64,000 bases of DNA, from assembly GCF_007747445.1 (NCBI RefSeq), contig NZ_CP036425.1, positions 1,162,175 to 1,226,174 of the forward strand, read 5' to 3'. Both the position numbers and the translations under genes were made by a program. The stretch comes from Poriferisphaera corsica. Its GTDB lineage: Bacteria; Planctomycetota; Phycisphaerae; Phycisphaerales; Phycisphaeraceae. This document shows, piece by piece, positions 55-47,812 of this stretch (within the stretch, counting starts at the first letter, position 1; each line of letters begins with the position of its first letter). The notes under the pieces are model-generated. The model did no database searches. It was not told where the DNA came from and worked only from the letters and a program-made list of their open reading frames with translations.

Positions 55-92
55 ATGTCAGCATCTGTCAAATACGACACCTCCCCCCTCCA

Positions 93-126
93 CTCAAGCC
101 TGCCACCGCCGGTGGCAGGGTGTTTG
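93..126 (+). repeat. REP-like intergenic palindrome, copy 1
   Basis: The core is CTCAAGCC followed by a 10-bp perfect stem (CCTGCCACCG / CGGTGGCAGG) and GGTGTTT. It has the same layout as the palindromes near 33.8, 35.2, 39.8, 41.4 and 45.0 kb. It lies downstream of trmL but is oriented opposite to that gene. Confidence 0.7.
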
Positions 127-192
127 AAATAGTCACGCACATCATCTGTACAGGTGTCTAACCACCAGTTATCCGTACCCTTAATCCAACCA

Positions 193-30429: not shown

Positions 30430-31910
30430 TACTCACCCATGCTCATATCTTTGTAGTAACGCTTCAAAAACGGATTACGAACCAACCGCAACGGTATCTT
30501 TTTGCCTTCAGTCTTGCACTGATCAATCACTTTCTGATCTTCAGTCAGTTTGTCATACATCTCCTGTAACGCAGGCTTTTCACGCAGCGTTAACGCGATC
30601 TTCTTGTCTATCGCCAGCTTAGTTGCAGATGCCGCTTCTTCTGGAGACGAAATCTTGTTCACCACACGGTCGTAATAGTATTGCGTTGATCTGAACACCT
30701 CAGCATCCGCGACAAACGGACTGTACACCCCGCCAATCGCGATCGTCTTCGCCTGATTCACAAACTTTTCATGAATGCCCCATTCGTTCGGAAATTTTTC
30801 AGGCCGCAAAAACGCTTCCCCCTTCGCATATTCAGGGTTCGGAGGCAGCGCATCCGCATCATTCACAATCAACATGTTGTAATCTTCACTAGCTAAATAC
30901 TGATAAAATAGCTTGGCCGCCTCTTTGTGATTCCCACCCTTATACATCGCCGAAGTGCGCGTCGAAATTCGGGCATTCGGATAATGATCGAAGGGCACAC
31001 TCACCGCACCAAGTTTCATCGGCTCCTCAAATCGCCGTAACTGAATCAACATGTACCGCCCCGTATATATCATCGCAAAATTGCCACGATAAAACAGTTG
31101 CGCCGTTAACCCCCCATAACCCGACCCTACATTAAACGAACGTATTTCAGCTTCCGTGGGGATAATATGATCCTCATGAATCCACTTGCTAATCCGATCA
31201 AGTGTCTTCACATATCTTTCATCATCCAGCGTACTTGCCGTCAACGTTTCGTTAAAAATGCTCAGCCCCATACTCCGATGCATCAGCGTATAATCCACGC
31301 CGATTGCATAGAAGTTCGTCTGCTGCTTGCCTGGCTCGTTCGCAGCCTTAACATACGCTTTACCCAATCGTTCAAACTCATCAATCGTCCACTTCTCAGG
31401 CGGTAGCGGTTGACCATACTTCTCAAACACATCTTTATTCACCAGCAGCAGCGAGCAAACCACATTACACGGGAACGCCATCTGCCTCCCATTCACCACA
31501 AGCTCAGTTTCTAGCGCTTTATAAGTCTTCGAAAGATCGAAACCCATCTCTTTCGCACTATCCGTAAGCTCTTCCAGCACACCAATATCATCCATGTACC
31601 GAACATACCGGCCATTAAACAAATCCATCACATCGCCGCCCACACCTGACACCGTCTGGATGATCTTTTTCGCCATCCGTCCATTCGCCGCGTCAATGCG
31701 CAAATCAACCGCAGGCTTCCCATCCGCCGTCACATGACCATGCTTGATGAGCCACTTCTTAAATGTCTCAACCTGCAACGTCCTCGCAGGGTTCGGATCT
31801 GTCACCCAAAACAATACCGGCACCTCAGACTTCGCATCTGGGAACCGCATGTATGTCGCAAAGCTAAACAGACTTAATAAAACAGCAACGATCAGAAATA
31901 TGTACTTCAT
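30429..31910 (-). CDS. Sugar ABC transporter substrate-binding protein
   Basis: This 493-residue extracellular solute-binding protein of the MalE-like family captures the sugar for the two permeases encoded after it. The N-terminus MKYIFLIVAVLLSLFSFATYMRF is a membrane anchor or signal without a lipobox Cys. The mature part begins VPVLFWVTDPNPARTLQVETFKKW. Typical segments follow: GGDVMDLFNGRYVRYMDDIGVLEEL, FPCNVVCSLLLVNKDVFEKYG, and FAMIYTGRYMLIQLRRFEEPMKLGAVSVP. The last 100 residues form a helical extension. It is the first gene of the operon; no ATPase gene follows, so a shared MsmK-like ATPase elsewhere is expected. Confidence 0.9.
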   Translation of the reverse strand: MKYIFLIVAVLLSLFSFATYMRFPDAKSEVPVLFWVTDPNPARTLQVETFKKWLIKHGHVTADGKPAVDLRIDAANGRMAKKIIQTVSGVGGDVMDLFNGRYVRYMDDIGVLEELTDSAKEMGFDLSKTYKALETELVVNGRQMAFPCNVVCSLLLVNKDVFEKYGQPLPPEKWTIDEFERLGKAYVKAANEPGKQQTNFYAIGVDYTLMHRSMGLSIFNETLTASTLDDERYVKTLDRISKWIHEDHIIPTEAEIRSFNVGSGYGGLTAQLFYRGNFAMIYTGRYMLIQLRRFEEPMKLGAVSVPFDHYPNARISTRTSAMYKGGNHKEAAKLFYQYLASEDYNMLIVNDADALPPNPEYAKGEAFLRPEKFPNEWGIHEKFVNQAKTIAIGGVYSPFVADAEVFRSTQYYYDRVVNKISSPEEAASATKLAIDKKIALTLREKPALQEMYDKLTEDQKVIDQCKTEGKKIPLRLVRNPFLKRYYKDMSMGE

Positions 31911-32149
31911 AGCCTCTTTTCGCGCAGCAGATGGTTCAACAAGTCATTCACACAAACACAACATCCAAAGCACGCCAACTCTCTCAACCCAAACAGGCAC
32001 CACGCCACTCGACTCACTCATGCAAGGCATGCTTATTCAATCAAATTTCAACATTCAATAAAAATGAGCAAAAGTTGCGTTGAGTATACCCGTAATTGCT
32101 CCCTCGAGATAGGACCATCTCAAAAAACTATCATTTGCTAAGAATCTGT

Positions 32150-32803
32150 CTATTTGCCCAGTATAATCCGCGATAGTTCGCACGCATCATGCACAACCAC
32201 ATCAGCACCATTCTGCTCTAGCTCTTCAACCTCTCGGAATCCCCATGACACACCCACCGTCATCACGCCCCCAGCTTTCCCTGTCAGCATATCCACTTTA
32301 CTATCCCCCACATAGACACACTCACTCGGCTTGACCCCCACTACGTCCATCGCTTCTCTAAGCCCCGCCGGGTCTGGCTTTATCGCCACGCCCTCACGCG
32401 CCCCAAACACCACATCAAACCCATACCCATCAAGTAACTTTGTGACCACTTCACGCGTTGCACCGTCTGGCTTGTTGCTCACCACGCCCAGCTTCACACC
32501 CCCATTTTTCAACTCGCGCAACATCTCACCTACGCCCGGGTACAGCCCCGTATGGTCATACATATGAACATCATAGTATTCATGAAACAGCCGCAATCCT
32601 TCCTCAAACAACCCCTCATGCCCAGCACCCAAAGCATCCCTAATCAGGTTCTTCACACCCTGTCCCACCAGATACCGATACGCCTCCAGCTCATGCATCG
32701 GCCTGCCCAATTCTCGCAAAGCGTAATTCACCGCATCCGCTAAATCTCGCAAGCTGTTCACCAGTGTCCCGTCCAAATCAAATATCGCAGCTTCATAATT
32801 CAT
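32150..32803 (-). CDS. gph: HAD hydrolase, phosphoglycolate phosphatase type
   Basis: This 217-residue haloacid dehalogenase-fold phosphatase begins with motif I FDLDGTLVNS (nucleophile Asp near residue 9). It continues with the helical cap LRDLADAVNYALRELGRPMH, motif II VVSNKP, the Lys motif KPDP (IKPDPAGLREAM), and motif IV CVYVGDSKVDM. Order, cap type and length match phosphoglycolate phosphatase, which removes 2-phosphoglycolate from DNA repair or oxygenation, but related HADs such as PpaX are close alternatives. It is transcribed alone, leftward, with a 239-base gap after it before the ABC operon start. Confidence 0.85.
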   Translation of the reverse strand: MNYEAAIFDLDGTLVNSLRDLADAVNYALRELGRPMHELEAYRYLVGQGVKNLIRDALGAGHEGLFEEGLRLFHEYYDVHMYDHTGLYPGVGEMLRELKNGGVKLGVVSNKPDGATREVVTKLLDGYGFDVVFGAREGVAIKPDPAGLREAMDVVGVKPSECVYVGDSKVDMLTGKAGGVMTVGVSWGFREVEELEQNGADVVVHDACELSRIILGK

Positions 32804-33153
32804 CCACTCACCCTAAGCCCCACCCACATCACCGTCAAACCACTTGCATCACTACAGGACATCCCTTCCCATAAATGCTATTGCCTATCTTCTCATCAAA
32901 ACGTATCTTGCATCCATACATTAAGTTAAGCACGCCACATCAATCCGCTTGCCTCGCACAGCTCAACTCAAAAATCTCAAGAATAATTATCTCATCAAGA
33001 TCGTTGTATCACTGATCCTCCCTCTCCGCCTCACCCATCGCCATCCCCTCACTCCACAGCAACCCACTGGTCAACGAGATCAATCGTAGAAAAGCGCACT
33101 AAAAAACCTCGCCAGTTTGGGAGCCGAACAATCGACATCCAAACGGAGGCCAT
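32804..33153. other. Gene-free spacer between divergent genes
   Basis: These 350 bases hold the start regions of gph (left) and the flavin reductase gene (right). I see no ORF, repeat or strong hairpin. Confidence 0.5.
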
Positions 33154-33675
33154 ATGCCATCATCCAAATCGGTTCGTAACGCAGATAATCCCGAATCACA
33201 AACTTCTGATCTAGCTCAAATTCTTGGCCAAATCCCTAGTGGAATCTACGTCCTCACAGCACACCACGAAGACCGTCGGCTCGGCATGCTCGCTTCATGG
33301 ATTCAGCAAGTCTCATTCAATCCACCCATGATCTCCATCGCTATCGCCAAAGGCCGCCCCATCATGCCCCTCATCTCCGAGTCTCGGCACTTCGCCCTCT
33401 GCCAACTCGCCGACCACCACACCACCATCAAACGCAAATTCGCCGCACCCTCCGACTTCGCCGACGACCCCTTCCTCGGCTACCAGATCATCCACGGCAA
33501 ATCCCCCTCACTACCCATCCTTGCCGATTCACTCAACTACCTCGAATGTGAAGTCTCTTGCCATATGGACGTCGACGGCGACCACGACATCTTCATCGCC
33601 AAAATCCTCAACGCCAAAACCCTCAACCCCGGCCCGCCCGCCATCCACCTCCGCGACTCCGGCTTTCACTACTAA
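33154..33675 (+). CDS. Flavin reductase family protein
   Basis: This 173-residue FMN-binding split-barrel protein has the family signature IPSGIYVLTAHHEDRRLGMLASWIQQVSFNPPMISIAIAKGRP near the N-terminus. FALCQLADHHTTIKRKFA and YLECEVSCHMDVDGDHDIFIAKI follow, the latter the usual flavin reductase GDHxxFIG-like region. Such proteins reduce flavin for partner monooxygenases or bind flavin themselves. GGAG lies five to six bases before the ATG. It uses C-ending codons very strongly, as do neighbours in the 20-37 kb block. The stop codon is followed at once by nine C residues, the start of a repeat element. Confidence 0.88.
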   Translation: MPSSKSVRNADNPESQTSDLAQILGQIPSGIYVLTAHHEDRRLGMLASWIQQVSFNPPMISIAIAKGRPIMPLISESRHFALCQLADHHTTIKRKFAAPSDFADDPFLGYQIIHGKSPSLPILADSLNYLECEVSCHMDVDGDHDIFIAKILNAKTLNPGPPAIHLRDSGFHY

Positions 33676-33810
33676 CCCCCCCCCTATACGTATGATCAAT
33701 TTTTCAATCCCGCCCTTGACCCGACGCGCAAATTTTGAATTCAACGCCAAAAGTCCTCATTTAATAATTCCCTCAAGCCCGTCACCGCTGGTGGCGGGGT
33801 GTCTTGCCCC
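33676..33810 (+). repeat. Poly-C-initiated intergenic element with REP-like palindrome, copy 2
   Basis: It begins with nine C residues touching the stop codon. Then come ATACGTATGATCAATTTTTC, CGCCCTTGACCCGACGCGCA, and at 33772-33805 the palindrome CTCAAGCCC-GTCACCG-C-TGGTGGC-GGGGTGTCTT. The same parts in the same order follow two leftward genes (see 39763-39925 and 41400-41512). Confidence 0.65.
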
Positions 33811-33994
33811 TAAACCATCTCATTAAAATTTTTCCGAAGCGCGACCCGCCCCTTCTACCCCTAAGAAAACCCCGCCCACCCTTCATTTAATCCCAAATTC
33901 CGCACTCAAAACCGTCCATTATCTTTTTGTAGACAACTCTTTACATCAATCTTGCAATTCGTTCTCGTCTTCTCCACCTGTTACAATTGAGCCT

Positions 33995-35176
33995 ATGAAA
34001 CGCGAATCCACCCCCCATAATTCCCCCCAATCCCCACAAGACGCGACCTCATTCGACCCCACACCCATCGAAGTCGAGGACCCCATCAATACCCAAATCC
34101 TCACCGTTTCCGAGGACAAAGTCCAAGGTTTCGAGCGATGTCCCATCTCCAAAATCGCTGAGATGACCGACCTCCCCACCGACCTCATCCTCACGCGCAT
34201 CAAAGCCATGCTCGACGCAGGCGTCATCCGCCGTGTCCGTCAAACACTCATGGCCACCAACCTCGCACCCGGCGCGCTCATCGCTTGGAAAGTTCCCGCA
34301 GACAAAATCAACGACGCCTTCGAATACATGTTCGCCAACGACCCCTTCACCGGCCACGTCGTTCTCCGTTCCACCGACGGCGACACCCCCGGCTCAACCT
34401 ACAAACTCTGGACCACACTCAAAGTTCCCAAGCCCTACTCAATGACCAAGCACTGCGATTACCTCGCATCAAAAACCGGCGCCCAAGACTACGTCCTCCT
34501 CCCCGCCAAAAACGTCTTCTCACTCGGCGTTGGCCACATGCGCCGTCGCCAACTCAAACCCGGCGATCGCTCCGAAACCCCCGGCCGCGTTCACAACGTC
34601 ACCGTCACCGACCTTTCCGACCTTGAATGGAAAGTGCTCATGGCCCTCAAACGCGAGTTCACCTCCGCCGAACTTACACTCAACCTTTGGCAACCCCGCG
34701 CCCAAGAAATCGGTCTCTCACTCGATGAATTCTGCCACATCGCAGACGAGCTCAACAACCGCCGCGTCATCGGCCGATTCTCAACCTTCCTCGAGCACGT
34801 CAAAAAAACAAAGACCGGCAAAACCGTCTCACGTTACAACGCACTCTACCACTGGGCCGTTTCCCCCGGTCAAGAACTACAAGCAGGCATCGAAGTCGGC
34901 CGTCACCACTGCATGACCCACGCCTATTGGCGCGACGGCGGGCCAACCTTCGGCAACGTCAACATCATGGGTGTCTCTCACGGCAACGACAAAGACAACG
35001 TCCTCCAACACAAAGCCGCCATCGACGCACACCTCAAAGAAGCCGGCATCCCTGTCCTCTACACCAACATCTTCTGGGGCGGCCGATCCGAAATTAAACC
35101 CTCAGAAATCTCACCCATCGTCTACAAACAGTGGTGTGAAAAGTTCAACCTCACTCCCGCCGACATGCACGCCTAA
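33995..35176 (+). CDS. Double siroheme-decarboxylase-like (Lrp/AsnC-fold) protein
   Basis: This 393-residue protein has two AhbA/AhbB-like units in tandem. Unit 1 (about 40-195) has a winged helix (CPISKIAEMTDLPTDLILTRIKAMLDAGVIRRVRQTL) and a ferredoxin-like half with STYKLWTTLKVP. Unit 2 (about 205-385) has LSDLEWKVLMALKREF...NNRRVIGRFSTFLEH, and YNALYHWAVSP. Siroheme decarboxylases, which act in the alternative haem pathway and in haem d1 synthesis, are heterodimers of such units; a fusion fits. It could instead be an Lrp/AsnC-type regulator. No haem gene is adjacent. The codons are strongly C-rich. Confidence 0.7.
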   Translation: MKRESTPHNSPQSPQDATSFDPTPIEVEDPINTQILTVSEDKVQGFERCPISKIAEMTDLPTDLILTRIKAMLDAGVIRRVRQTLMATNLAPGALIAWKVPADKINDAFEYMFANDPFTGHVVLRSTDGDTPGSTYKLWTTLKVPKPYSMTKHCDYLASKTGAQDYVLLPAKNVFSLGVGHMRRRQLKPGDRSETPGRVHNVTVTDLSDLEWKVLMALKREFTSAELTLNLWQPRAQEIGLSLDEFCHIADELNNRRVIGRFSTFLEHVKKTKTGKTVSRYNALYHWAVSPGQELQAGIEVGRHHCMTHAYWRDGGPTFGNVNIMGVSHGNDKDNVLQHKAAIDAHLKEAGIPVLYTNIFWGGRSEIKPSEISPIVYKQWCEKFNLTPADMHA

Positions 35177-35213
35177 CCTATCCCGCCGCTGCACATCAAC
35201 CACATCATTGCTC

Positions 35214-35244
35214 TACAAGCCCCGCACCGCCGGTGCGGGGTGTC
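35214..35244 (+). repeat. REP-like intergenic palindrome, copy 3
   Basis: ACAAGC followed by the perfect 10-bp stem CCCCGCACCG / CGGTGCGGGG and TGTC. It lies 37 bases after the stop of the preceding rightward gene. Confidence 0.7.
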
Positions 35245-35273
35245 ACCCCAACCAAACATTATTTCAACAAACC

Positions 35274-35306
35274 CTCAAGCCCACGGGTTCCACCCGTGAG
35301 GTCTTT
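35274..35306 (+). repeat. REP-like intergenic palindrome, variant copy 4
   Basis: CTCAAGCC followed by CACGGGT / ACCCGTG with a short loop and AGGTCTTT. The flanks match the other copies but the core ACCGCCGGT is replaced. A partial relative on the opposite strand lies at about 39692-39725. Confidence 0.6.
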
Positions 35307-35373
35307 ATGCAAAGCATCACGAACCTATCACCTGCGTCTTCATTCTAAAATCCCCATCCTCATCCCCCCAATA

Positions 35374-35406
35374 TAAAAGCTGCACCAATCAAAGTCGGCG
35401 CAGCTC
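35374..35406 (-). terminator. Terminator of the PEP-CTERM gene
   Basis: The stem AGCTGC / GCAGCT, extended by CC/GG, reads leftward into TTTTATAT. It lies 25 bases after the stop codon. Confidence 0.75.
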
Positions 35407-35429
35407 TCTAAATGATTAAACTAAAAATC

Positions 35430-36122
35430 TCACGCACGCTTACGTCTAATTAGCGCTAAGCCACCTAAGCCGATCAGCACCATCGAGCTCGGCTCCGGCA
35501 CGATCTGTAAACTTTTCAAAAGCATCTCAATATCACCATTCGGTAACATCAAGCCAGTACCATAAAACTGGAAATACGGCGTGTGATAGATGCTGTCACG
35601 CTCAGCCTCATCCGCAAACGTCAACAGTTTTCCATCGATTAGTGAGTTAGGATTCGGTGTCCCAAGATTAAAAATGTTCCCATGATTAGCGTGTGTACTA
35701 TTCGTCCTGAGTTCCAGCGTAAATCCTTCACTGTTAATATCAGATTCAAAAGTAATATAGTTCCATCCACCGTTTTCTCCCGGCAATCGATCCCACAACT
35801 CAAGCTCCACATCACTGTTCAATGCAATCACCGAATCGCCGTCCGCCTTCGTGAATGTGACATGATTGAACGTTATACCCGAATAGAATGTATCGGAGCC
35901 ATCCTGCAAAATCCCATTTGATTCCAATTGTAGATTATCAGAAATAGTGAAAATCACTTCGCCGCCAGTGATCGCTCCATAATCAAAACCATCCGATGCG
36001 TCGTAATCATCCACATCATCGATCTCGCCAAACGTCGCGCGATAAACCGTCGCATCCGCCGATGTTCCTATGCCAAACCCACACGCCAATAACGCACACA
36101 TAGCAAGCTGTTTGTGTAACAT
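35430..36122 (-). CDS. PEP-CTERM sorting domain secreted protein
   Basis: This 230-residue exported protein has a signal peptide at residues 1-24 (cleavage near SADA). The mature part is Asp-rich and beta-strand-like (YRATFGEIDDVDDYDASDGFDYG, GITFNHVTFTKADGDSVIAL, GWNYITFESDINSEGFTLEL). The C-terminus IVPEPSSMVLIGLGGLALI then RRKRA is a PEP-CTERM exosortase signal. The fold of the middle is unrecognised. It is the third such substrate in the window, none next to an exosortase gene. It is transcribed alone with its own terminator. Confidence 0.88.
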   Translation of the reverse strand: MLHKQLAMCALLACGFGIGTSADATVYRATFGEIDDVDDYDASDGFDYGAITGGEVIFTISDNLQLESNGILQDGSDTFYSGITFNHVTFTKADGDSVIALNSDVELELWDRLPGENGGWNYITFESDINSEGFTLELRTNSTHANHGNIFNLGTPNPNSLIDGKLLTFADEAERDSIYHTPYFQFYGTGLMLPNGDIEMLLKSLQIVPEPSSMVLIGLGGLALIRRKRA

Positions 36123-36679
36123 GCTGTCTCCTCGTAAATCAACAATAGATATGTCTTTTCCCTCTACATCTCCTACGTACAGGGTCGATCATTCCCGAGT
36201 AACTCACTCTTTCAATAGCTTGAAATGATCGCTGATCTGGCTAAGTATGGCATAAATTAGAACTAAATCAATGGCTATATGCGTCTGCATTCACTTCAAG
36301 CCAGAACCATATTTTTATTCCATAGCAAATCCCGTACCAAAACATACAACTTTCAAACTGTGCGCCAATTCACGAAATCACCCTTTAAAACAGGTACATT
36401 TCTCACACATTTCAATCAATATACAATGTGTTTCGCACCATTCTTTGCCCATTTCTCGCAATTTTAGATCTATTTGTGCTAAGGGAAACTCACCGAAAAT
36501 CGAAATCGGCGCGCACAAGCTCGTCCGTCAATTTCACATTCTCCATCATATCTTTCGCTTTTCGCAACTCCCCATCTCAAAACAAACACAATTCATCTAA
36601 TTCTTAAAAAACCAAATCAAAAAAAACCTCAAAATCTGCGCGCACAAATCCAACACCTAAACATTTTATGCGCACAAAC
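36123..36679. other. AT-rich gene-free region with GCGCACAA motifs
   Basis: No credible gene was found in 557 bases. Sites of the type GCGCACAA(A/G) occur near 36511, 36640 and 36670, the same core as in the 670-1335 gap. The final 80 bases are A-rich. Short open frames here lack ribosome sites. Confidence 0.5.
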
Positions 36680-37366
36680 CTAAATCCCAACCAATGAACC
36701 CAAACCATTCAACCCAAGCGGCTCTTTCGTAAAGAACGGCTCGGCATACGGCACACCAATCCGTGATCCCATATACGCATTCATACTCCGCAGCCAATCA
36801 ACAATCGGCCGATTCTTCTCCGGAACCACAAACTGTGTGTGATACGCCTTAATCGCATCAATCTTCTTTTCCATCTGCTCCGTGATATCAACACAGAACG
36901 TCGGATTCGCAACCCACCGCAGATGTGTGCAGTAATAATAAATCATCCACCGCGGATAAATTGGTTCGCCCGGCAAATCAATCTTTGTCAGTTTCGCATC
37001 AAATCGCGCATCCTCCACAATCCGTGTCACCGCACGGTGATCCGGGTGCGCATCCTCCTCAAACGGCAAAAAGATAATCTCAGCTTGATGTTCGCGAATA
37101 ATCCCAGCGACTGCATGCCGCGCGTCGAGGGTGTGCAATACCTCGCGGTTTTTTAAGCCCAATAGTTGCCGCGGCGCGCCCATAATTTTCGCAGCCAGCG
37201 TCCATTCTTTTTCACGTTCCTCAAGTGAACCATGCGGTGTTGGCTCGCCGTTGGTGATGTCGAGGATGAGAATATTGTGGCCTTGTTCGGCGAGCTTAAT
37301 GATTGTGCCGCCCATACCGAGTTCCTGATCATCCGGGTGCGGGCCGACAACTAAGATATTTGCCAT
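36680..37366 (-). CDS. PIG-L family deacetylase, BshB1-like
   Basis: This 228-residue zinc-dependent N-acetylglucosaminyl deacetylase has the metal motif GPHPDDQELGMGG (HPDD) near residue 10. DITNGEPTPHGSLEEREKEW is typical of BshB1. The third metal ligand is in EEDAHPDHRAV, and the C-terminal FKAYHTQF-like part reads AIKAYHTQFVVPE. BshB1 deacetylates GlcNAc-malate in bacillithiol synthesis. The gene upstream is a GT4 glycosyltransferase but is not clearly BshA, so the substrate is uncertain. I chose ATG at 37366 (MANILVVG). Base composition changes from C-rich to G-rich across this gene. Confidence 0.82.
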   Translation of the reverse strand: MANILVVGPHPDDQELGMGGTIIKLAEQGHNILILDITNGEPTPHGSLEEREKEWTLAAKIMGAPRQLLGLKNREVLHTLDARHAVAGIIREHQAEIIFLPFEEDAHPDHRAVTRIVEDARFDAKLTKIDLPGEPIYPRWMIYYYCTHLRWVANPTFCVDITEQMEKKIDAIKAYHTQFVVPEKNRPIVDWLRSMNAYMGSRIGVPYAEPFFTKEPLGLNGLGSLVGI

Positions 37367-37422
37367 AAGTTTCACTCTCTAACGTGCTGTTTTGCATTTC
37401 ATGCTGCAAAACAAATGTTTTA

Positions 37423-38616
37423 TCAGTTGGGGATCGATCGCAGCGAATCATAAAGATGCTGAAGCGCATCGGTCATCGCCTGTGAGGAATACTGTTTGCG
37501 GACGAATTCTCTTCCCGCTTCAGTGAGTTTTTGTGTTTTTTCTTTATTTTCAATGGTATCCACGATCGCAGCGGCGAGCGCGTCATGATCGTGTGCGGTG
37601 ACGAGGCGGCCGGTGTGCGCGTTGCAGATGGAGGGGATGCCGCCGACGTTATAAGCAACGATTGGGAGGCCGAGCAGGAGCGCTTCGACGAGGGTGCGCG
37701 ATTGTCCTTCCTGATAAGAAGGGAGAACTTTCATGTCTGCGGCGGCGAGGGTTGCGGCGACTTGTTCATGCGGGATGTAGCCGGTGATGATGATTTTATC
37801 GGTGAGGTTTTGGGCTTTGATTTTTTGTTCGAGTTCTTTACGGTAAAAACCGTCGCCAATGAAGAGCAGGTACGTGTTGTCGCCGAGTTTTTGTTTGAGT
37901 GTGGGGTAGATGTCGAGCAGGTCGTTGTGCCCCTTGAGTGGGTCGAGTCTTGCGAGGTTGGCGATGACGACGGCGTCCTGGGGTATGTTCAATTTTTTGC
38001 GTGCGTCTAACTTTGCGTTAGGTGCGAGTTTAAATCGCGAGAGATCCACGCCAGAAGGGACAACAGAGAACTTGGATGCGGGCGCGATGTTTTTGTCAAC
38101 GAAGGCTTGTACCATTTCGGGTGTGATGGCGATGATGTGGTGACAGCGTTTGGCTGCAAACTGTTCGAGGCCGACGTAGAGGTTGTGAACCCATTTGGGT
38201 TGATGATCGTGGAAGGGCAGGCCGTGCACGGTGTGGATGATGATGGGGCCAGGGTTGGGATTTGAGGAAGTTTTCTGTGAGTATTGAACTTTTGATGCGG
38301 CAGCGCGGCCGATGATGCCGGCTTTGGATGAGTGGGTGTGAACGATGTCGGGTTTTTCTTGTTTGATCAGTTTTTTAAGTGCGAGATAGCACTGCGCGTC
38401 TTTGAGCGGGTGAATGGATCGCACCATTGATGGGAGTTCGATGAGTTTTGCGCCGGATTGTTGGGCTTCTTTGAGGAGTGATCCTTCGGGCCCGTAGATT
38501 GGGCCGTAGACGAGGGTGACCTGATGGCCGGCGGCGACCTGCGCGCGACAACTCATGACGGTGTTTTGCTGAGCACCACCCTGAATGAGCCGCGTGATAA
38601 TGTGCATGATCTTCAT
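37423..38616 (-). CDS. Glycosyltransferase family 4
   Basis: This 397-residue GT-B enzyme transfers a sugar from an activated donor. The N-terminal acceptor domain starts MKIMHIITRLIQGGAQQNTVMSC and contains PDIVHTHSSKAGIIGR. The C-terminal donor domain has VVIANLARLDPLKGHNDLL, IGDGFYRKELE, and the E-x7-E motif in LPSYQEGQSRTLVEALLLGLPIVAYNVGG. These features suit polysaccharide or lipid glycosylation. BshA is a possible role because a BshB1-like gene follows, but the N-terminus does not look like BshA. The start overlaps the truA stop by four bases (ATGA), so it is co-translated with truA. Confidence 0.85.
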   Translation of the reverse strand: MKIMHIITRLIQGGAQQNTVMSCRAQVAAGHQVTLVYGPIYGPEGSLLKEAQQSGAKLIELPSMVRSIHPLKDAQCYLALKKLIKQEKPDIVHTHSSKAGIIGRAAASKVQYSQKTSSNPNPGPIIIHTVHGLPFHDHQPKWVHNLYVGLEQFAAKRCHHIIAITPEMVQAFVDKNIAPASKFSVVPSGVDLSRFKLAPNAKLDARKKLNIPQDAVVIANLARLDPLKGHNDLLDIYPTLKQKLGDNTYLLFIGDGFYRKELEQKIKAQNLTDKIIITGYIPHEQVAATLAAADMKVLPSYQEGQSRTLVEALLLGLPIVAYNVGGIPSICNAHTGRLVTAHDHDALAAAIVDTIENKEKTQKLTEAGREFVRKQYSSQAMTDALQHLYDSLRSIPN

Positions 38617-39578
38617 TGATCCCCCCCCTGTTCGTCAGATGTATCTGTCATATCCGGTAATGACGTATCATGATCCTCCCCCTGTGCGCCAGATATATTT
38701 TTCACATCCGTCACTTTCGCATCGCGCGATGTGGGTGGTGTAGAGGGCATTTTGTTTGCATCTAATGATGAGTTAGGTGATGGGTCGTCGTATGAGATCC
38801 ATTCGAGGGTTAGGCCGGAGGGGGGGAGGGTTGGGCCAGCGAGTTGGCGGTCGGTGGTTTGGATGATCTCGTCGATGCGTGAGGGGGTGAAGTGGCTGCG
38901 GCCGACTTCGAGGAGGGTGCCGGCGATGATGCGGATCTGGTTCCAGAGGAAGCCGTTGCCGGTGACGACGATGTCGGTGAAGTCGGCGTTTTGTTCGATG
39001 TTGCAGGTGTAGATGGTGCGGACGGTTGATTCGCGGCCGTGACCTGCGGTGGCGAAGCCTTCGAAGTCGTGTGTGCCGACGAGACGATTGGCGGCGTCTT
39101 GCATGAGGGTGGTGTCGAGTTGATAACGTGTGTGGTAGACGAGGTTGCGGAAGCCGAGGGGTCGGTGATTGGAGATGAAGAAGCGGTAGCGGTATTGCTT
39201 GTTTTTGGCACCGAGGATGGATTGGAAATCAGGTGAGGTGACTTCGGCGTGGCGGATGTCGATGTCAGGGGGGAGGCAGCCGTTGACGGCGTGGGCGAGG
39301 TTTTCGACGGGGATGCGTGTGGCGGCGTCGAAGTGAGCGACTTGTCCGAGTGCGTGCACGCCGGAGTCTGTGCGGGATGCGCCGGTGAGGGTGATGGGTT
39401 GTTTGAGTTTACGGATGAGTGCTTGTTCGAGGACGCCTTGAACGGTGCGTAGGGGTTCTTGGTCGGGTGGTTCTTGTTTTTGCCAACCGAAGAAGTCGGA
39501 GCCGTCGTAGGCGACGGTGAGTTTGTATCGCAGGCGTTCGGGTTCAGGTTTTGGGTTGTCGGGGGAGGATTCGGGCAT
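38613..39578 (-). CDS. truA: tRNA pseudouridine(38-40) synthase TruA with repeated tail
   Basis: TruA converts uridines 38-40 of the anticodon arm to pseudouridine. Key segments: LTVAYDGSDFFGWQKQ at the start, the catalytic Asp in GASRTDSGVHALGQVAHFD (about residues 60-80), and FLWNQIRIIAGTLLEVGR (about 208-225). At 321 residues it is about 50 longer than usual because of an acidic C-terminal tail. That tail contains two imperfect copies of an 18-codon unit (VTDVKNISGAQGEDH and PDMTDTSDEQGGDQ). It is encoded ahead of the GT4 gene, which it overlaps. The core assignment is firm; the tail is odd. Confidence 0.94.
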   Translation of the reverse strand: MPESSPDNPKPEPERLRYKLTVAYDGSDFFGWQKQEPPDQEPLRTVQGVLEQALIRKLKQPITLTGASRTDSGVHALGQVAHFDAATRIPVENLAHAVNGCLPPDIDIRHAEVTSPDFQSILGAKNKQYRYRFFISNHRPLGFRNLVYHTRYQLDTTLMQDAANRLVGTHDFEGFATAGHGRESTVRTIYTCNIEQNADFTDIVVTGNGFLWNQIRIIAGTLLEVGRSHFTPSRIDEIIQTTDRQLAGPTLPPSGLTLEWISYDDPSPNSSLDANKMPSTPPTSRDAKVTDVKNISGAQGEDHDTSLPDMTDTSDEQGGDQ

Positions 39579-39762
39579 TGGGGTATTTTAGTGGTATTTG
39601 CGGAAGAGTGCAGGGGGAAAGAGGAAGGGATATAGGATTGCGGGTTTTTGAATGAAGACACAGGTGATGGGTCTGAGATGATGGAGCCGGGGCAGTCAAA
39701 GACCCCACGGGTGGTGAGGGGTGTTGGTTGGGGGAGACGTAGGTGAGAGGGGGAGATTTTAT
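39579..39762. other. Intergenic spacer with a partial palindrome copy
   Basis: Between truA and the next repeat there is no gene. At about 39692-39725 (reverse strand) a sequence like the variant palindrome at 35274 occurs: CACCACCCGTGGGGTCTTTG. Confidence 0.4.
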
Positions 39763-39925
39763 AGGCGATTGATTGGTGGGTTGTAAGACACCCCACGACC
39801 GGCGGTCGTGGGCTTGAGAATACTGCGGCATTTTCGTGTGGTTGGGAGGAAAAGATTTGCGCGCAGGGTCAAGGGTGGGTTTGGAAGAAGGATATGACGT
39901 ATCAGGGGGGAAGGGGGAGGGGGGG
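39763..39925 (-). repeat. Poly-C-initiated intergenic element with REP-like palindrome, copy 5
   Basis: Read leftward from the stop codon of the metallopeptidase gene: three C-runs, CTGATACGTCATATCC, CACCCTTGACCCTGCGCGCA, then the palindrome CTCAAGCCCACGACCG-C-CGGTCGTGGGGTGTCTTA at 39785-39818, then CAACCCACCAATCAATCGCC. It has the same order of parts as copies 2 and 6. Confidence 0.7.
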
Positions 39926-41242
39926 TTAGCGATAGATGATGTCGGGGGTGATTTGGCCGGTGGGGGTCTGATGCCAAATGAGCATGGGTTCGGGTGTGAG
40001 CCCTTTGGCGAGGATGCGCGGGGGCATGTTGTCGCGCGGCGAGGCGAGGAGGATGAAGTCGGCGGGGAGGCCGTTGCGTTTGAAGGTGTAGAGTCGGGGG
40101 TCGTTGGCGGTGATGGTTTGTGTGGTGTTGTTGGAAGTCCATGAGACTTCGATGCCGAAGCGTCGCATGAGGTGTTGGAGTTTGTCGATGTTGCGGGGGA
40201 TGGTGATGTTTTGAGATTGGAAGTGGCGGAGTGCGACGGAGAGGTATTGCATGCGTTCGGCGGCTTCGGAGACGGGGTCGTTGCGCATGGTGAGCGCGAA
40301 GCGTTGCCATTGGCGTTGGAGGTGGCCGCGATCGGAGCTGAAGATTTCTTCGAATGAATCTTTTGGGTTGTCGCCTGAGTTGAGTGCGGCGAGGTATTTG
40401 TTGACGTTAGAGGCGTTGCGGCCGTCATCGTGATGGATGAGGAAATAGACCATTGACCAGGCTTGAGCGTAGAGTCGTGAGGCTTGATCGGGGTCGGAGC
40501 TGAGGATTTTTGACCAGTCGTCGTGTGACATGTCCATGATGGCGGGGAAGGGGAGGAAATGGTTTGATCTAACCATGAGTTTGACGAGTTTGGTGCGGTT
40601 GATATCGGCGAGTCCGGTGCGGAGTGTTCCGTCGGTGATGACGGCGTCTTCGAAGTATTGTGCGAGTCCTTCGTTCATCCAGACGGGGAGGTTATTGCCG
40701 ATGTAGTTCCATGTGAATTGATGGAAGCCTTCGTGCTGGAGGACGGCTTTGACGTCGCGCATGGGTTTGTCGCCGATCCAGAGTGCGAGGCATTTGAGGT
40801 TTTGTTTGTAGACGAACATGCCGCCGGAGTTGTGGGCGTGGATGTTGTATTTTGCGAGGAATCGGATGTAATCGGATTCGCTATCGAATAGATAGATAGG
40901 CATGGGGCGGTGCTGAGAGGCGATGAGGCCTTTAAAGCGTTTTTCGTATTGTTCGAACATTTGGTCGACATGTCGGCCGATGGGGATGACGCGATCTTGT
41001 GGGAGTTCGGTGTGGATGATGTAGTGGTCGGTGCGATAGCGTTTTGCGTTTTCGCTGAGGATGGGCGTTGTGGTGTTGAGTTTGAGTGAGGCGCTGCGAG
41101 AGAAGTTGTTATTGGGAAGGGCGGAGGCTCGGCCGACGGCGAAGTAGATGATTGTGGCGAGTAGGAAAGCAATGCAAAAAGTGAGCAGCAAGAGCTGCTT
41201 GAAAAGATGAAATACTACCCCTCGCAGTGTGAATTTGAACAT
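39926..41242 (-). CDS. Membrane-anchored gluzincin-like metallopeptidase (DUF1570 type)
   Basis: This 438-residue protein has an N-terminal membrane anchor (about residues 12-36), so the catalytic part faces the periplasm. The zinc site is HEGFH (His170, Glu171, His174) in VLQHEGFHQF. The third ligand is probably Glu191 in LPVWMNEGLAQYFE, the layout of gluzincins and of planctomycete DUF1570 proteins. About residues 70-160 form an alpha/beta lead-in (DHYIIHTELPQDRVIPIGRHVDQMFEQYEKRFKGL). Substrates are unknown. It is transcribed leftward alone. Its stop codon is followed immediately by the poly-C repeat element. Confidence 0.83.
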   Translation of the reverse strand: MFKFTLRGVVFHLFKQLLLLTFCIAFLLATIIYFAVGRASALPNNNFSRSASLKLNTTTPILSENAKRYRTDHYIIHTELPQDRVIPIGRHVDQMFEQYEKRFKGLIASQHRPMPIYLFDSESDYIRFLAKYNIHAHNSGGMFVYKQNLKCLALWIGDKPMRDVKAVLQHEGFHQFTWNYIGNNLPVWMNEGLAQYFEDAVITDGTLRTGLADINRTKLVKLMVRSNHFLPFPAIMDMSHDDWSKILSSDPDQASRLYAQAWSMVYFLIHHDDGRNASNVNKYLAALNSGDNPKDSFEEIFSSDRGHLQRQWQRFALTMRNDPVSEAAERMQYLSVALRHFQSQNITIPRNIDKLQHLMRRFGIEVSWTSNNTTQTITANDPRLYTFKRNGLPADFILLASPRDNMPPRILAKGLTPEPMLIWHQTPTGQITPDIIYR

Positions 41243-41399
41243 CTATGATAATGTTCGGATGGATGGCGGAGGCGGATGATGGAGAGGTTGATTTGGGGGT
41301 GAAGAAGGTGGTGGGATTGTGCGGGATGTGTGGGTGTTAGTGATTAGTGCTGGTGCGAGAATTGATGCGGATGAAGGGTAGAGGGGGCAGAGTTAATGC

Positions 41400-41512
41400 A
41401 GGCGATTGATTGATGGGTTGTAAAACAACCCACGACCGGCGGTCGTGGGCTTGATATTTACGTGCAGGGCCAAGGGCAGATTGAAAAAATAAGTGTGACG
41501 AAACAGGGGGGG
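41400..41512 (-). repeat. Poly-C-initiated intergenic element with REP-like palindrome, copy 6
   Basis: Read leftward from the accD stop codon: seven C residues, TGTTTCGTCACACTTATTTT, CTGCCCTTGGCCCTGCACG, the palindrome ATCAAGCCCACGACCG-C-CGGTCGTGGG at 41422-41455, and CAACCCATCAATCAATCGCC. It is a shorter sister of copy 5, missing about 35 bases before the palindrome. Confidence 0.7.
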
Positions 41513-42400
41513 TTATTTGCCGGCGTAGTCGATGAGGCGGGCGACTTCGCTGCGGAGTTCTTTGCGATGGACGACGCGGTCGAGGAAGCCTTTTTGTAGG
41601 AGGAATTCAGCGCGTTGGAAGCCATCAGGGAGTTCTTGTCGGACGGTGTTGGCGATGACGCGGGGGCCAGCGAAACCGATAAGGGCTTTGGGTTCGGCGA
41701 TGATGACGTCGCCGAGCATGGCGTAGGAGGCGGTGACGCCGCCGGTGGTGGGGTCGGTGAGGATGGAGATGAAGAGGCCGCCGAGGTCATCGAAGCGTGC
41801 GAGCGCTGCGGAGGTTTTGGCCATTTGTGAGAGTGAGAGTGAGGACTCTTGCATGCGTGCGCCGCCTGAAGCGGAGACGAGAATGAAGGGGCGATCGGTT
41901 TCGGTGGCGAGCTCGATGCAGCGTGTGATTTTTTCGCCGACGACGGAGCCCATGGAGGCCATCATGAAGCGTGTGTCCATGACGGCGATGACGACGCCGC
42001 GGCCTTTGACGAAGCCCTTGCCACAGATGAGGGCGTCTTTGTGGCCGGTTTTGGTTTGTTCTTTTTCGATGCGTTCGGCGTAAGGGATACGGTCAACGAA
42101 GTCGAGTGCGTCGACGGGGCCGATGTCTTCCCAGAGGGGTTCGAAGGATGAGGGATCAAGGATTTGCTCGATGCGCTGGTCGGCGCCGACGCGGTAATGG
42201 TGGTCGCACTCGGGGCAGACTTCGAGGTTTTCGGTGACCTGTTTTTGGTAGCACATGGCTTCGCACTTTGGGCATCGCATCCAGAGTCCTTCGGGGACAT
42301 CGCTTTGCTTGAGGTCTTGCCAGGTGCGCGCACCGTTTGAGGTGGGCGGATTGTTGTTGGTATCCGAATCGGTTTTTGTTTGCTGCTCAGCCAAAGTCAA
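41513..42400 (-). CDS. accD: Acetyl-CoA carboxylase carboxyltransferase subunit beta
   Basis: AccD, with AccA, moves the carboxyl group from biotin to acetyl-CoA to make malonyl-CoA for fatty acid synthesis. The N-terminal zinc finger is CPKCEAMCYQKQ...CPECDHHY. The crotonase-like core has FVKGRGVVIAVMDTRFMMASMGSVVGEKI, FILVSASGGARMQESSLSL, LTDPTTGGVTASYAMLGD and GFAGPRVI. I favour a TTG start at 42400 because GAGGAG lies just upstream; an ATG-started frame to 42493 adds 31 residues unlike the family. accA is not in this window. The gene is followed by the poly-C repeat element. Confidence 0.95.
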   Translation of the reverse strand: MTLAEQQTKTDSDTNNNPPTSNGARTWQDLKQSDVPEGLWMRCPKCEAMCYQKQVTENLEVCPECDHHYRVGADQRIEQILDPSSFEPLWEDIGPVDALDFVDRIPYAERIEKEQTKTGHKDALICGKGFVKGRGVVIAVMDTRFMMASMGSVVGEKITRCIELATETDRPFILVSASGGARMQESSLSLSQMAKTSAALARFDDLGGLFISILTDPTTGGVTASYAMLGDVIIAEPKALIGFAGPRVIANTVRQELPDGFQRAEFLLQKGFLDRVVHRKELRSEVARLIDYAGK

Positions 42401-42566
42401 TGATCTCCTCTTTGCTGCGGCAGAGATGTTATTGAGCAGTGCTTTTGATCGTGGGAAAGTGTTATATAAAACACAGATTATTCTTTTGATCAAGAAAGCA
42501 GTTGCTTGAATGGTTCATCGCGTTAACAATGATTATAACCAGATAAACCATGCTGCGAGAAATGCG

Positions 42567-43379
42567 ATGCGAATTGTGAGATTTATTGATGCTGAGGGTG
42601 TTGTGAGATTGGGTGCGGAACAAGGGAATGGGACGGCGATGATTTTGGGGGGAGATTTGATGAAGGGGGTTGGTGGTATGGGTGAGACAGGTGAGTCGGC
42701 TGTGATTACGAGGCGGTTGGCTCCGATTATGCCGTGCAATATTTATTGTATAGGTCGGAATTATGCGGAGCATGCGAAGGAAGGTGGGGCAGAGATACCG
42801 GAGACGCCGGTGATCTTTATGAAGCCGACGACGGCGGTGACGAATCCGGAGAGTCCGGTGGTCATACCGGCTTGTTCGTCGGAAAAGGGGGAGGTGGATT
42901 TTGAGGCGGAGCTGGCGGTGGTGATTGGGAAATTGGGGAGAAATATATCTGAGGCTGATGCGATGGATTATGTGTTGGGGTACACGATTGGGAATGATAT
43001 TTCGGCGAGGAAGTTTCAGAAGCAAGGGGGCGGCGGGCAATGGATCAGGGGGAAATCGTTTGATACGTTCTGCCCGCTTGGGCCGGCGATTGTGACGAAG
43101 GATGAGATTGTTGATCCGCAGGAGTTGGGGATTAAGTTAACGTTGAATGGTGAGGTGATGCAGGAGGATGTGACGGGGAACATGATTTTTCCTGTGGCAG
43201 AATTGATTGCCTATATTTCGAGGGACACGACGTTGTTGCCGGGGACGGTGATTATGACGGGGACGCCGAGCGGGGTTGGGTTTGCGCGGAAGCCTGCGGT
43301 GTGGTTGAAGTCGGGTGATGAGATGGTTGTGGAGATTGAGGGGATAGGTGAGTTGCGTAACACGGTCGAGTCGGCGTGA
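42567..43379 (+). CDS. Fumarylacetoacetate hydrolase family protein
   Basis: This 270-residue enzyme has the FAH fold. The N-terminal part is MRIVRFIDAEGVVRLG. The core begins NIYCIGRNYAEHAKEGGAEIPETPVIFMKPTTAV, with the metal-binding EVDFEAELAVVIGK and LGYTIGNDISARKFQ. GKSFDTFCPLGPAIV, and PGTVIMTGTPSGVGFARKP near the end, complete it. Members hydrolyse or decarboxylate acyl-pyruvates and related diketo acids; oxaloacetate decarboxylase or acylpyruvase activity are both possible. I chose ATG at 42567 because the residues match the family start; ATG at 42510 is upstream in frame. It diverges from accD. The exact substrate is not readable from sequence. Confidence 0.88.
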   Translation: MRIVRFIDAEGVVRLGAEQGNGTAMILGGDLMKGVGGMGETGESAVITRRLAPIMPCNIYCIGRNYAEHAKEGGAEIPETPVIFMKPTTAVTNPESPVVIPACSSEKGEVDFEAELAVVIGKLGRNISEADAMDYVLGYTIGNDISARKFQKQGGGGQWIRGKSFDTFCPLGPAIVTKDEIVDPQELGIKLTLNGEVMQEDVTGNMIFPVAELIAYISRDTTLLPGTVIMTGTPSGVGFARKPAVWLKSGDEMVVEIEGIGELRNTVESA

Positions 43380-43394
43380 GGTTAGAATAGTGTG

Positions 43395-43706
43395 ATGGAA
43401 TTATTTATATCAGAGCCGATTGAACCGCGGGAGGGATCGTTTGATGCGCGTATGATTGCGCGGGGTGAGCCGGGGATGCCGACGCATTTTACGTGGCGGG
43501 GCGATGAGTACCGGGTGGATGAGATATTGGAGACGTGGAAACAATCGGGGGCGGAAGGTTTTTCGGGTGAGATGTATTTGAGACGGCATTACTTCAAGGT
43601 GCTGACAACGTCGAAGGATGTGATGACGGTTTATTGTGAGCGTCAGCAGAAGAGGAAGAATGCGAAGCAGCGTTGGTTTTTGTATACGATGGAAAAGCCG
43701 GTCTAG
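43395..43706 (+). CDS. DUF6504-like small protein
   Basis: This 103-residue protein has the pattern FISEPIEPREGSFDARMIARGEPGMPTHFTWRGDEYRVDEILETWKQ...YLRRHYFKVLTTSKDVMTVYCERQ...RWFLYTMEKPV. This is the beta-rich layout of DUF6504, whose members have a WRG..YRV.E.L..W core. In other bacteria related domains occur near DNA-repair polymerases, but here the neighbours are metabolic. It begins 15 bases after the FAH gene, so it is probably in the same transcript. Function is unknown. Confidence 0.72.
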   Translation: MELFISEPIEPREGSFDARMIARGEPGMPTHFTWRGDEYRVDEILETWKQSGAEGFSGEMYLRRHYFKVLTTSKDVMTVYCERQQKRKNAKQRWFLYTMEKPV

Positions 43707-43923
43707 AGCATTTTGCGTAAATGCCCGCTTGTTGACTAGAAGGTCGTTTAAGATTAACTGAGGTATTGTGAGTAATTTTGCTGTTTACACACTTTGACAA
43801 GACCTGTGAATAGTTACGCAAATTGATCTAATATGGTGATAGATTGGTTTTTAATCTGCTTTGTTGATGAGGTATGAAGTGTGGGGTTGTGGTTTATATG
43901 ATTGCGTTAACGTGGGGGGAAAA

Positions 43924-44913: not shown

Positions 44914-45002
44914 ATGAGGGGAGATGGTCGGGTGGTGATGAAGAAAGAACATGATGGGTGCAAGGTGATTTTAATATGAATATTTTGGAGCTTATGTTCC
45001 AT

Positions 45003-45033
45003 ACACCCCATGACCGGCGGTCATGGGCTTGAG
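45003..45033 (-). repeat. REP-like intergenic palindrome, copy 7
   Basis: On the minus strand: CTCAAGCCCATGACCG-C-CGGTCATGGGGTGT, a perfect 10-bp stem. It lies between the convergent PfkB and ndk genes, past the ndk terminator. Confidence 0.7.
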
Positions 45034-45056
45034 GTTGATTGGGTAGATGTCCAAGT

Positions 45057-45088
45057 AAAAAACCACGATGAAAGCATCGTGGTTTTTA
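45057..45088. terminator. Bidirectional terminator between pfkB-like gene and ndk
   Basis: The 10-bp perfect stem AACCACGATG / CATCGTGGTT with loop AAAG has A and T runs on its two sides. It is the main terminator of ndk. Confidence 0.9.
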
Positions 45089-45117
45089 AGTGGTGTCGTT
45101 GCGAGACTAATGGTTGA

Positions 45118-46272: not shown

Positions 46273-46293
46273 AACCAAGAATGGAGAAATAAC

Positions 46294-47718: not shown

Positions 47719-47757
47719 ACATATTCGGCTTATCGATAATCGGGTAAAATGATTGAA

Positions 47758-47784: not shown

Positions 47785-47812
47785 TTTGTTCGTATTCGAT
47801 GAGGTATTGAGG

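Follow-up and report, generated by a model that had tools for sequence, protein, structure and literature searches.

The window, a 64,000-nucleotide stretch of the Poriferisphaera corsica chromosome (NZ_CP036425.1, positions 1,162,175 to 1,226,174), contains three genes whose stop codons are followed directly by a run of C residues, as an earlier note on this DNA had described: a flavin reductase gene (TAA at 33673-33675; nine C at 33676-33684, plus strand), a metallopeptidase (DUF1570) gene (TAA, then CCCCCCCTCCCCCTTCCCCCC from 39925 downward, minus strand) and accD (TAA, then seven C at 41506-41512, minus strand). C-runs alone are unremarkable in the window (11 occurrences of CCCCCCC versus 7.0 expected). 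The C-run had been joined with the sequence after it into one element of 110-160 bp, which separates into two repeats that are also found apart: a poly-C repeat of approximately 55 bp (unit A) and a REP hairpin of 30 bp. After the flavin reductase gene, unit A occupies 33676..33734 (plus strand, starting 0 nt past the stop codon; model E 1.9e-14) and the REP 33774..33803 (plus; genome 1195948-1195977; strict pattern and model match). After the metallopeptidase gene, unit A lies at 39854..39925 (minus; sequence and model match) and the REP at 39787..39816 (minus; strict pattern and the best model match, E 1.9e-16), with the tail CTTACAACCCACCAATCAATCGCC after it. Unit A at 41454..41512 (minus; sequence and model match) begins at the accD stop codon, and the REP at 41424..41453 (minus; model match, genome 1203553-1203633) has a variant 3' foot, GTTGTT. 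Further REPs follow an AsnC-like gene (PF17805) at 35216..35244 (plus; genome 1197390-1197418; pattern and model match) and lie at 45003..45031 (minus; model match, genome 1207131-1207211) and within a model match at 89..168 (plus; genome 1162263-1162342, E 9.4e-7). Two partial poly-C units in the 3' part of truA (38620..38712, plus) are antisense to truA and off the C-rich strand; these matches are weak (E 0.03 and 0.24) and stand outside the unit A copies counted below.

The ordered blocks described as common to the three sites are present and persist on proper alignment, with only a loose match in the ACGTCAT block. GGGGTGTCTT, described as shared, is exact in two of the three copies and reads GGGTTGTTTT in the accD copy; CCCTTGACCCTGCGCGCA is exact only in the metallopeptidase copy, with two mismatches after the flavin reductase gene and three after accD, and at up to three mismatches it has 20 copies versus 0 in the control. 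The supposed 10-bp palindrome is a 9-bp stem with a 3-nt loop.

The REP hairpin has the form CAAG-CCC-9-bp stem-GGG-GTGTC followed by a tail, and at least 146 copies exist in the genome, counted from the best 150 of 2065 candidates scored after four of the 150 model matches were dropped at E 2.7e-4 or worse. The pattern CAAGCCCN{8,24}GGGTGTC is matched exactly at 49 places in the genome, compared to none for the reversed pattern, and AAGCCCN{8,24}GGGTGTC occurs three times in the window versus a shuffle mean of 0.05. Covariation in the stem is strong: among 422 stem cells, taken from 47 of the 49 strict copies, 98.1% are paired, with 65 double changes versus 21.0 in shuffles and a score of 0.362 versus 0.091. 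All 47 aligned copies have C-G at the two outermost stem pairs, and the feet in the alignment are CAAG on the 5' side and GTGTC on the 3' side, the copies having been found by a pattern that contains both feet. The tail is 35.7% C and 10.4% G. A search of Rfam with window positions 30000-48000 gave no match up to E 5, and the hairpin lacks the T-run of an intrinsic terminator, with GTGTC and a tail rich in C and A coming after it instead. Gene context was assessed with gene calls from a codon-usage script, not a published caller, in stretches chosen for holding a copy, with twelve random stretches of 20 kb plus the window as the control. The REPs are mostly intergenic, with one of the at least 146 lying inside a called gene; relative to the upstream gene, 115 are sense, 21 antisense and 9 undetermined. 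The earlier claim that the element always reads in the sense of the preceding gene thus stands for the three sites and not genome-wide.

Unit A has at least 64 copies, grouped into 43 clusters and counted from the best 150 of 1778 candidates scored after 20 of 84 model matches were dropped at E above 1e-3. Its head with up to two mismatches has 45 copies versus 4 in the control. The search of the genome bore out clustering at gene ends for both repeats: the C-run of unit A begins 0-15 nt past a stop codon in 15 of the 43 clusters, and two more clusters adjoin a stop codon without a C-run. A same-strand REP lies within 150 bp downstream of 20 of the 64 units. Poly-C past stop codons as a genome-wide habit was rejected, as it was found after only 8 of 196 genes in the random stretches and the window, three of the eight being the window's own A units. 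Unit A gave one stray match in each of 10 of 60 relatives and no family, one stray match in the GTDB species collection, which possibly lacks the source genome or a near one, and no match in viral contigs; among the collections searched it is private to the P. corsica genome. It is a separate repeat with a preference for the bases right past stop codons, and tandem multiplication occurs as well.

The orientation of REPs follows base composition. Whatever the direction of the neighboring genes, the REP is on the strand locally richer in C in 145 of 146 cases, including 97 of 97 in which it is sense and 11 of 11 in which it is antisense to the preceding gene, so the sense orientation of REPs is mostly a by-product of the local C-rich strand. 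With the strand set by skew, the excess of REPs located 3' of sense genes is modest (84.6% versus 68.9%), and therefore much of the sense bias at gene ends is compositional. In the sampled stretches, all 112 CCC/GGG hairpins with a recognizable foot, including 53 with one foot, have the same polarity, and four further footless hairpins were not judged for polarity. The polarity of unit A is weaker, the C-rich strand carrying 34 of its 43 clusters.

The earlier note had also proposed a 3'-end element. Acting in RNA, poly-C together with a spacer rich in C and poor in G would load Rho while the hairpin blocks 3' exonucleases and sets the mRNA end, with the sense orientation maintained by selection. 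Rho is encoded in the genome; the 80 spacers between stop codon and REP, excluding unit A, are 34.6% C and 11.8% G compared to 21.1% C and 21.4% G over the 60 nt past 163 random genes; folding predictions for the RNA suggest that unit A is unstructured and the REP folds; and an intrinsic terminator lies within 150 nt of 2 of 20 genes with unit A after them versus 67 of 236 (Fisher p 0.11). However, the C-richness is regional, the third codon positions of REP-bearing genes being equally skewed (median 0.75) and those of genes with antisense REPs oppositely so (-0.71), and a rut-type reading is for that reason set back as the main cause of orientation. Nor are terminators replaced by REPs (25 of 93 versus 67 of 236), and REP strand tracks skew, not gene sense, so an RNA function is not needed to account for orientation and is an unlikely explanation of the whole. 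Alternatively, REPs may insert both ways and strand-specific mutation may erode the copies on the G-rich strand. Third-position skew is indeed extreme (approximately -0.9 to +0.85) and the REP tail is C-rich, but the hairpin contains G and C in similar numbers and should last either way, yet all 112 judged copies share one polarity; such survivorship is highly improbable.

The reading considered probable is that the site is a composite of REP and poly-C repeats in which the REP is mobilized by a transposase, inserted with polarity and retained at gene ends. The hairpin would be a non-autonomous REP-type element mobilized by a RAYT-like Y1 transposase of 180 amino acids, inserting at a fixed polarity relative to the local replication-like strand asymmetry, such that its C-rich strand is the C-rich strand of the neighborhood and points at a nearby GCGCGCACAA focus; REPs would persist mainly 3' of genes, where insertion may do little harm. 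This explanation does not account for an excess of poly-C at REP-bearing, C-rich-coded genes: poly-C follows the stop codon in 22 of 74 C-rich-coded genes with a REP versus 11 of 84 in the same stretches and 2 of 32 in random stretches.

The gene for the 180-aa protein (genome 3329508-3330050) is the larger of two Y1 genes. An inverted pair of REPs starts 9 bp past its stop codon, and a degenerate REP-like sequence lies upstream. Among 30 homologous Y1 loci, the flanks share at least 16 nt in 18, compared to 2 of 571 random genes, and in genome G015, which belongs to another genus, 22 pattern copies share these feet and differ in the stem, one of them approximately 30 bp past the stop codon of its transposase gene. 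The family, found in Planctomycetota, has the motif HxH...W...YIxxH, with His and not Asn or Gln four residues past the catalytic Tyr. H99, H101, W144 and the catalytic Y165 are invariant in a 27-row alignment; of the 29 distinct rows that score above 195 bits, 28 have His at Tyr+4 and one has Arg, three truncated rows being uncountable, and His recurs in rows scoring 98.8 and 73.4 bits. The best profile match in the PDB is TnpArep (4er8, E 0.0027), with IS200-type TnpAs close behind; the protein falls far below the cut-off of the NCBI REP_Tyr_transpos model (NF047646; 17.5 versus 80 bits) and scores almost equally on the IS200 model (15.7 bits, cut-off 55). From its position beside REPs, the 180-aa transposase is probably the mobilizer, and together with copy number and covariation this suggests that the earlier description as REP-like and mobile applies, for the hairpin only. 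The second Y1 gene (L044:10602, 85 aa) was set aside as IS200-like; the surrounding 15 kb contains no REP except one approximately 6.8 kb off.

The arrangement resembles the REP/RAYT systems (TnpA-REP, REPtrons) in its short hairpin with a conserved unpaired foot, its copy number above 100, the location of most copies between genes and 3' of them, its inverted pair next to a single gene for an HUH-Y1 transposase and, in some relatives, hairpin codons inside the transposase ORF. It differs in having the feet CAAG and GTGTC rather than GTAG/GTGG, YIxxH rather than the YIxxNP of RAYTs, a conserved tail and near-absolute strand polarity to local skew. His at Tyr+4 appears in none of the subclasses in Table 1 of Quentin 2018 (PMC6006769). 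Class 3 TnpA-Y1, as outlined there, is likewise from Planctomycetes/Acidobacteria, REPtron-like and with atypical flanking hairpins, but its Y motif YV[VI][AENY]EQ and foot CnGA differ from the YIxxH family and the REP of P. corsica. Among 21 phylum proteins that score 51-73 bits to the Y1 profile, far below the YIxxH family at above 195 bits, 11 have Q at Tyr+5, one has Q at Tyr+4 and nine are truncated there. CGTC-tagged REPs, in the account of Di Nocera 2013 (PMC3733652), include a variant tag TGTC, which is present here, but begin the stem with two A-T pairs and lack a transposase, whereas in P. corsica the stem begins with CCC and REPs are present next to a transposase gene. The system adds a REP/transposase family whose foot and catalytic-motif signatures are new, and unit A adds a poly-C repeat at stop codons with no such family elsewhere in the collections searched.

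The skew that REPs follow forms a saw-tooth with abrupt upward steps along the chromosome of P. corsica and of its genus sister, and is absent in five relatives; no description of such skew in planctomycetes was found in the literature searched. In the window, two GCGCGCACAA boxes 129 bp apart (36509..36518 and 36638..36647, both plus) mark a candidate origin-like focus, the plus strand being C-rich leftward and G-rich rightward, where plus-strand GC skew rises from -0.36 at 36-37 kb to +0.50 at 39-40 kb. Over sampled stretches totaling 464 kb, 15 upward steps versus one downward step exceed 0.35; at positions above 0.4 the counts are 19 versus 0 in P. corsica (G000) and 9 versus 0 in genome G001. 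The mean profile across foci passes from approximately -0.35 to +0.38. GCGCGCACAA lies within 2.5 kb of 10 of the 15 steps (random 2.45) and the shorter GCGCACAA within 2.5 kb of 14 (random 4.65), four steps having only GCGCACAA; a step at 57.6 kb of the window has no box within 20 kb. The box was chosen from 7- to 9-mers at the same 15 steps, from a list not significant after correction for word number, and one piece contains the window, so that its two boxes are counted twice in one test. The tests of boxes at steps partly re-use those steps, whereas REP polarity and copy counts use other data. The shuffled-word control is thin because only one of 60 words had at least four matches (six, median step -0.10). 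GCGCGCACAAA has 79 copies in the 4.29 Mb of P. corsica and 145 in the 5.23 Mb of the genus sister; in genome G018 the reversed-word control for the box count is also high (10 versus 26). All 51 REPs within 15 kb of a GCGCGCACAA box, including those at the three sites described above, point toward the box.

If the flips of skew were relics of inversions in a single-origin chromosome, strand and skew would remain together as REPs were carried along, but upward and downward steps should be equal in number, and the box common to most steps would be unexplained; this is the least probable of the explanations considered. Transcription-coupled skew around strong divergent promoters is very unlikely: the sign of the steps agrees with deamination of two coding strands that lead away from a focus, but over many kilobases the sign of the skew does not depend on gene direction, and more genes near a focus are directed at it than away from it (27 versus 19 in P. 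corsica, 14 versus 8 in G001).

By analogy, REP polarity may be compared to that of IS200/IS605 elements (IS608), whose orientation reportedly recapitulates the direction of host replication (PMC5371812, citing Ton-Hoang 2010); unlike these, the REP carries no gene. Dispersed origin-like initiation is therefore the boldest reading: intergenic GCGCGCACAA loci, dozens in this genus, would launch bidirectional forks, the saw-tooth would be the mutational trace of those forks, and transposase-driven REPs would be a strand-specific record of fork direction that points at the nearest site. It is offered tentatively, as a possibility with the odds somewhat against it. Genes are not mainly on the G-rich (leading) strand (82 of 175 in P. 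corsica, 28 of 74 in G001), and TTATNCACA, the DnaA box, does not occur within 700 bp of the 15 steps (21 kb), where approximately 0.5 would be expected by chance because 12 occur in 464 kb. Base composition and insertion polarity are two independent tracks, and both reverse at shared boxed loci in many places on the chromosome. In the replication N-domains of eukaryotes ("factory-roof" skew), abrupt upward steps of skew are likewise separated by slow declines; here the host is a bacterium, the 15 upward steps fall within 464 kb sampled and a shared 10-bp box lies near most of them.

The gene ends behind the flavin reductase (plus strand), the metallopeptidase and accD (both minus strand), for which an earlier note claimed a single element, are read in the sequence as a composite of two repeats, the poly-C repeat (unit A) and a short hairpin repeat (REP). 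Unit A, about 55 bp long, runs CCCCCCTGTTCGTATCATC..ACTTCCAA.CCCGCCCTTGAC, with endings that include CCTGCGCGCAAAT and TTGCAGCGCAT; the REP consists of CAAG, a 9-bp stem CCC......GG with a 3-nt loop, GGG, GTGTC and then a tail, YTACAACCCA..TCAATCGCCTGCAA, which is retained in only part of the copies. Judged as a whole, the finding combines a genuine REP system, itself a new variant, with a private poly-C repeat. The window is 64 kb out of a 4.29-Mb single-contig genome (G000), and its gene content, which includes PEP-CTERM and DUF1570, suggests a planctomycete. The REP-like palindrome of the earlier note is borne out by 49 exact pattern copies in G000 versus 0 with the reversed control, and model matches at E < 1e-4 number at least 146, a lower bound. 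In an alignment of 47 copies, from which two with enlarged loops were excluded, three stem positions covary (422 cells, 65 double-sided changes, 98.1% paired), and the covariation is lost once the stem partners are slid against each other as a control. Among 60 relatives searched, a member of another genus (G015) has 22 pattern matches with the same feet and mostly one different stem, and an enlarged TTCCGGGGG loop like that of G000 is among them; G025 has 8, of which 7 are one related form; and the remaining relatives have 0-5 each, with some controls about as high.

Unit A has at least 64 matches at E < 1e-3, grouped in 43 clusters, the longest tandem arrays reaching 6 x 56 bp; as a family it was not found in the 60 relatives, the GTDB species collection or viral contigs. 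The C-run begins 0-15 nt past a stop codon in 15 of the 43 clusters, exactly at the stop in five of them (TAA each time), and two further clusters lie 0-15 nt past a stop with a head that lacks the C-run. Among genes followed by unit A, 15/20 have a C5 run no more than 20 nt from the stop, compared with 25/84 of those followed by a REP without unit A, 27/248 of those followed by neither in the same stretches, and 8/196 genes in random stretches plus the window. That the element always reads in the sense of the preceding gene is true of 25 clusters and fails for 9, another 7 being inside genes and 2 undetermined. Placement on the C-rich strand applies to 34 of the 43 clusters, and four of the nine exceptions adjoin a stop; the placement of unit A tracks stops more than skew. 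A REP on the same strand lies within 150 bp downstream of 20 of the 64 unit A matches listed, compared with 4 upstream and 4 on the opposite strand, where about 0.8 REPs of any kind are expected by chance.

For REPs, the same orientation rule holds in part: among the 146 listed, the preceding gene is in sense for 115 and antisense for 21, with 9 undetermined and 1 inside a gene. The median third-position skew, (C-G)/(C+G), is 0.75 for genes with a sense REP and -0.71 for genes with an antisense REP, and when skew is measured directly with the elements masked, the locally C-rich strand carries 145 of the 146 listed REPs; by preceding gene, this rule holds for 97/97 sense and 11/11 antisense cases. 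The reported sense orientation led to the strand-polarity pattern, which is the more surprising result. Erosion of wrong-way REPs is an unlikely origin of the polarity, because all 112 footed hairpins of the REP stem type in the stretches examined follow the C-rich strand. With strand fixed by skew, the sense share is 84.6% for observed REPs versus 68.9% for random intergenic positions, so a preference for gene ends remains.

GC skew in the window declines slowly from about +0.5 at 5 kb to -0.4 at 33-36 kb, jumps at 37 kb, and declines again until 57 kb, where a second jump occurs (57200-57750; neither GCGCGCACAA nor GCGCACAA lies within 20 kb of it). Stretches totalling 464 kb, 304 kb from G000 and 160 kb from G001, its genus sister, contain 15 upward steps greater than 0.35 and 1 downward step of that size. 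This saw-tooth with abrupt up-steps is seen in both genomes and is absent from five other relatives: the skewness of the difference distribution is 1.24 in G000 and 1.20 in G001 versus -0.15 to 0.36, and the 5-95% range of third-position skew is -0.83 to 0.78 and -0.58 to 0.79, respectively, versus values within -0.20 to 0.46. At 33 places with the 10-bp box GCGCGCACAA, the window's two boxes being counted twice, the median skew change is +0.435, with 25 above 0.3 and none below -0.3; 14.2% of random positions exceed 0.3. GCGCGCACAA lies within 2.5 kb of 10 of the 15 steps (2.45 at random) and GCGCACAA of 14 (4.65 at random), two tests that are not fully independent because the word was picked from those steps. 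In random stretches none of 16 GCGCGCACAA copies is inside a called gene, and two boxes stand 129-309 bp apart at 8 of 28 loci in the G000 stretches examined. Across these loci, 51/51 REPs and 12/13 unit A clusters lying within 15 kb of a locus point toward it. The three gene ends exemplify this: the window has a pair of boxes (36509 and 36638), with the plus-strand copy to its left and the two minus-strand copies to its right. Counts of GCGCGCACAAA are 79 for G000 and 145 for G001, against 3 and 1 for the reversed control, and they also exceed the control in G006 (50 versus 1), G018 (26 versus 10), G015 (22 versus 0), G005 (17 versus 2) and G021 (11 versus 0). The 3-kb stretches examined of G015 have the box within a near-identical repeated module and no strong skew; the module (L249, L258, L262) is about 150 bp long and has a TATATAGAGGGACGATTTATTC-like end; one copy carries TTGTGCGCACAA, and the others carry close variants of it. 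Many box copies in G006 and G015 are no more than a few hundred bases from contig starts.

G000 has two Y1_Tnp genes. The one of 180 aa, the RAYT-like candidate transposase for the REPs, is followed 9 bp past its stop by an inverted REP pair and preceded by a degenerate REP-like sequence. A search of 61 genomes finds homologues in 32 (its own counted), and their flanks (200 bp upstream versus downstream) share at least 16 nt at 18/30 loci versus 2/571 random genes; up to 200 bp from the transposase ORF, the density of AAGCCC/GGGCTT is 6.5 times that farther out. By the stricter criterion of a perfect hairpin on both sides, the counts are only 5/30 loci and 1/571 controls. Peptides resembling the translated flanking hairpin are in frame within the ORF in relatives' stretches L105 (KPTFIERGL), L109, L120, L129 and L131. 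H99, H101, W144 and Y165 are invariant in the alignment, consistent with an active HUH-Y1 enzyme. Among solved structures, the profile comes closest to TnpArep 4er8 (E 0.0027), with IS200-type TnpAs next at similar E. The profile matches 36 of 294 genomes of the phylum, only 8 of them (the own genome counted) above 195 bits, and 28 of 29 distinct rows above that score have His at Tyr+4. The 21 phylum proteins of 51-73 bits, 9 of which are cut short in the Tyr+4/Tyr+5 region, have Q at Tyr+5 in 11 and at Tyr+4 in 1; those with Q resemble class 3 of Quentin 2018 (PMC6006769). Explanation of the finding by REPs and their transposase is quite probable. The second Y1 gene (L044:10602-10859, 85 aa) is IS200-like and without flanking REPs.

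Transposases of IS200/IS605, according to PMC5371812, act on single-stranded DNA and prefer the lagging-strand template, and their insertions recapitulate replication direction. A RAYT-like enzyme with this habit would give one REP polarity per fork direction, and fork direction would switch at the boxed foci, where REP polarity and skew agree. GC skew and AT skew correlate at -0.63, the G-rich strand being also T-rich (-0.69 in a relative without the saw-tooth). Since a G-rich and T-rich strand is the usual leading-strand signature, the up-steps would be origins. Against the origin reading, no DnaA boxes were found at the skew steps, genes are not enriched on the G-rich strand, and one step is without any box; dispersed origin-like initiation is possible but somewhat doubtful. 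Xia 2012 (PMC3269012), relying solely on skew, argues that a few bacteria have multiple origins and cautions about other causes, and Gao 2015 (PMC4403523) calls for further evidence.

Enlarged-loop REP copies with TCCGGGGGC occur in stretch L013 and at G000 4047778, and the form is seen in G015 too, with the other stem. A further repeat, GCCGCCGCGACA(C)TTCGC..., lies near REPs, for example after G000 4049911 and 3954378. Its GCCGCCGCGACA part is present 14 times in 577 kb of stretches with REPs or unit A and is absent from the 304 kb made up of random stretches and the window. The palindrome TCTAAC N4-9 TTAGA occurs 21 times in the 577 kb and 3 times in the 304 kb of random G000 stretches (control word, 2 and 2).
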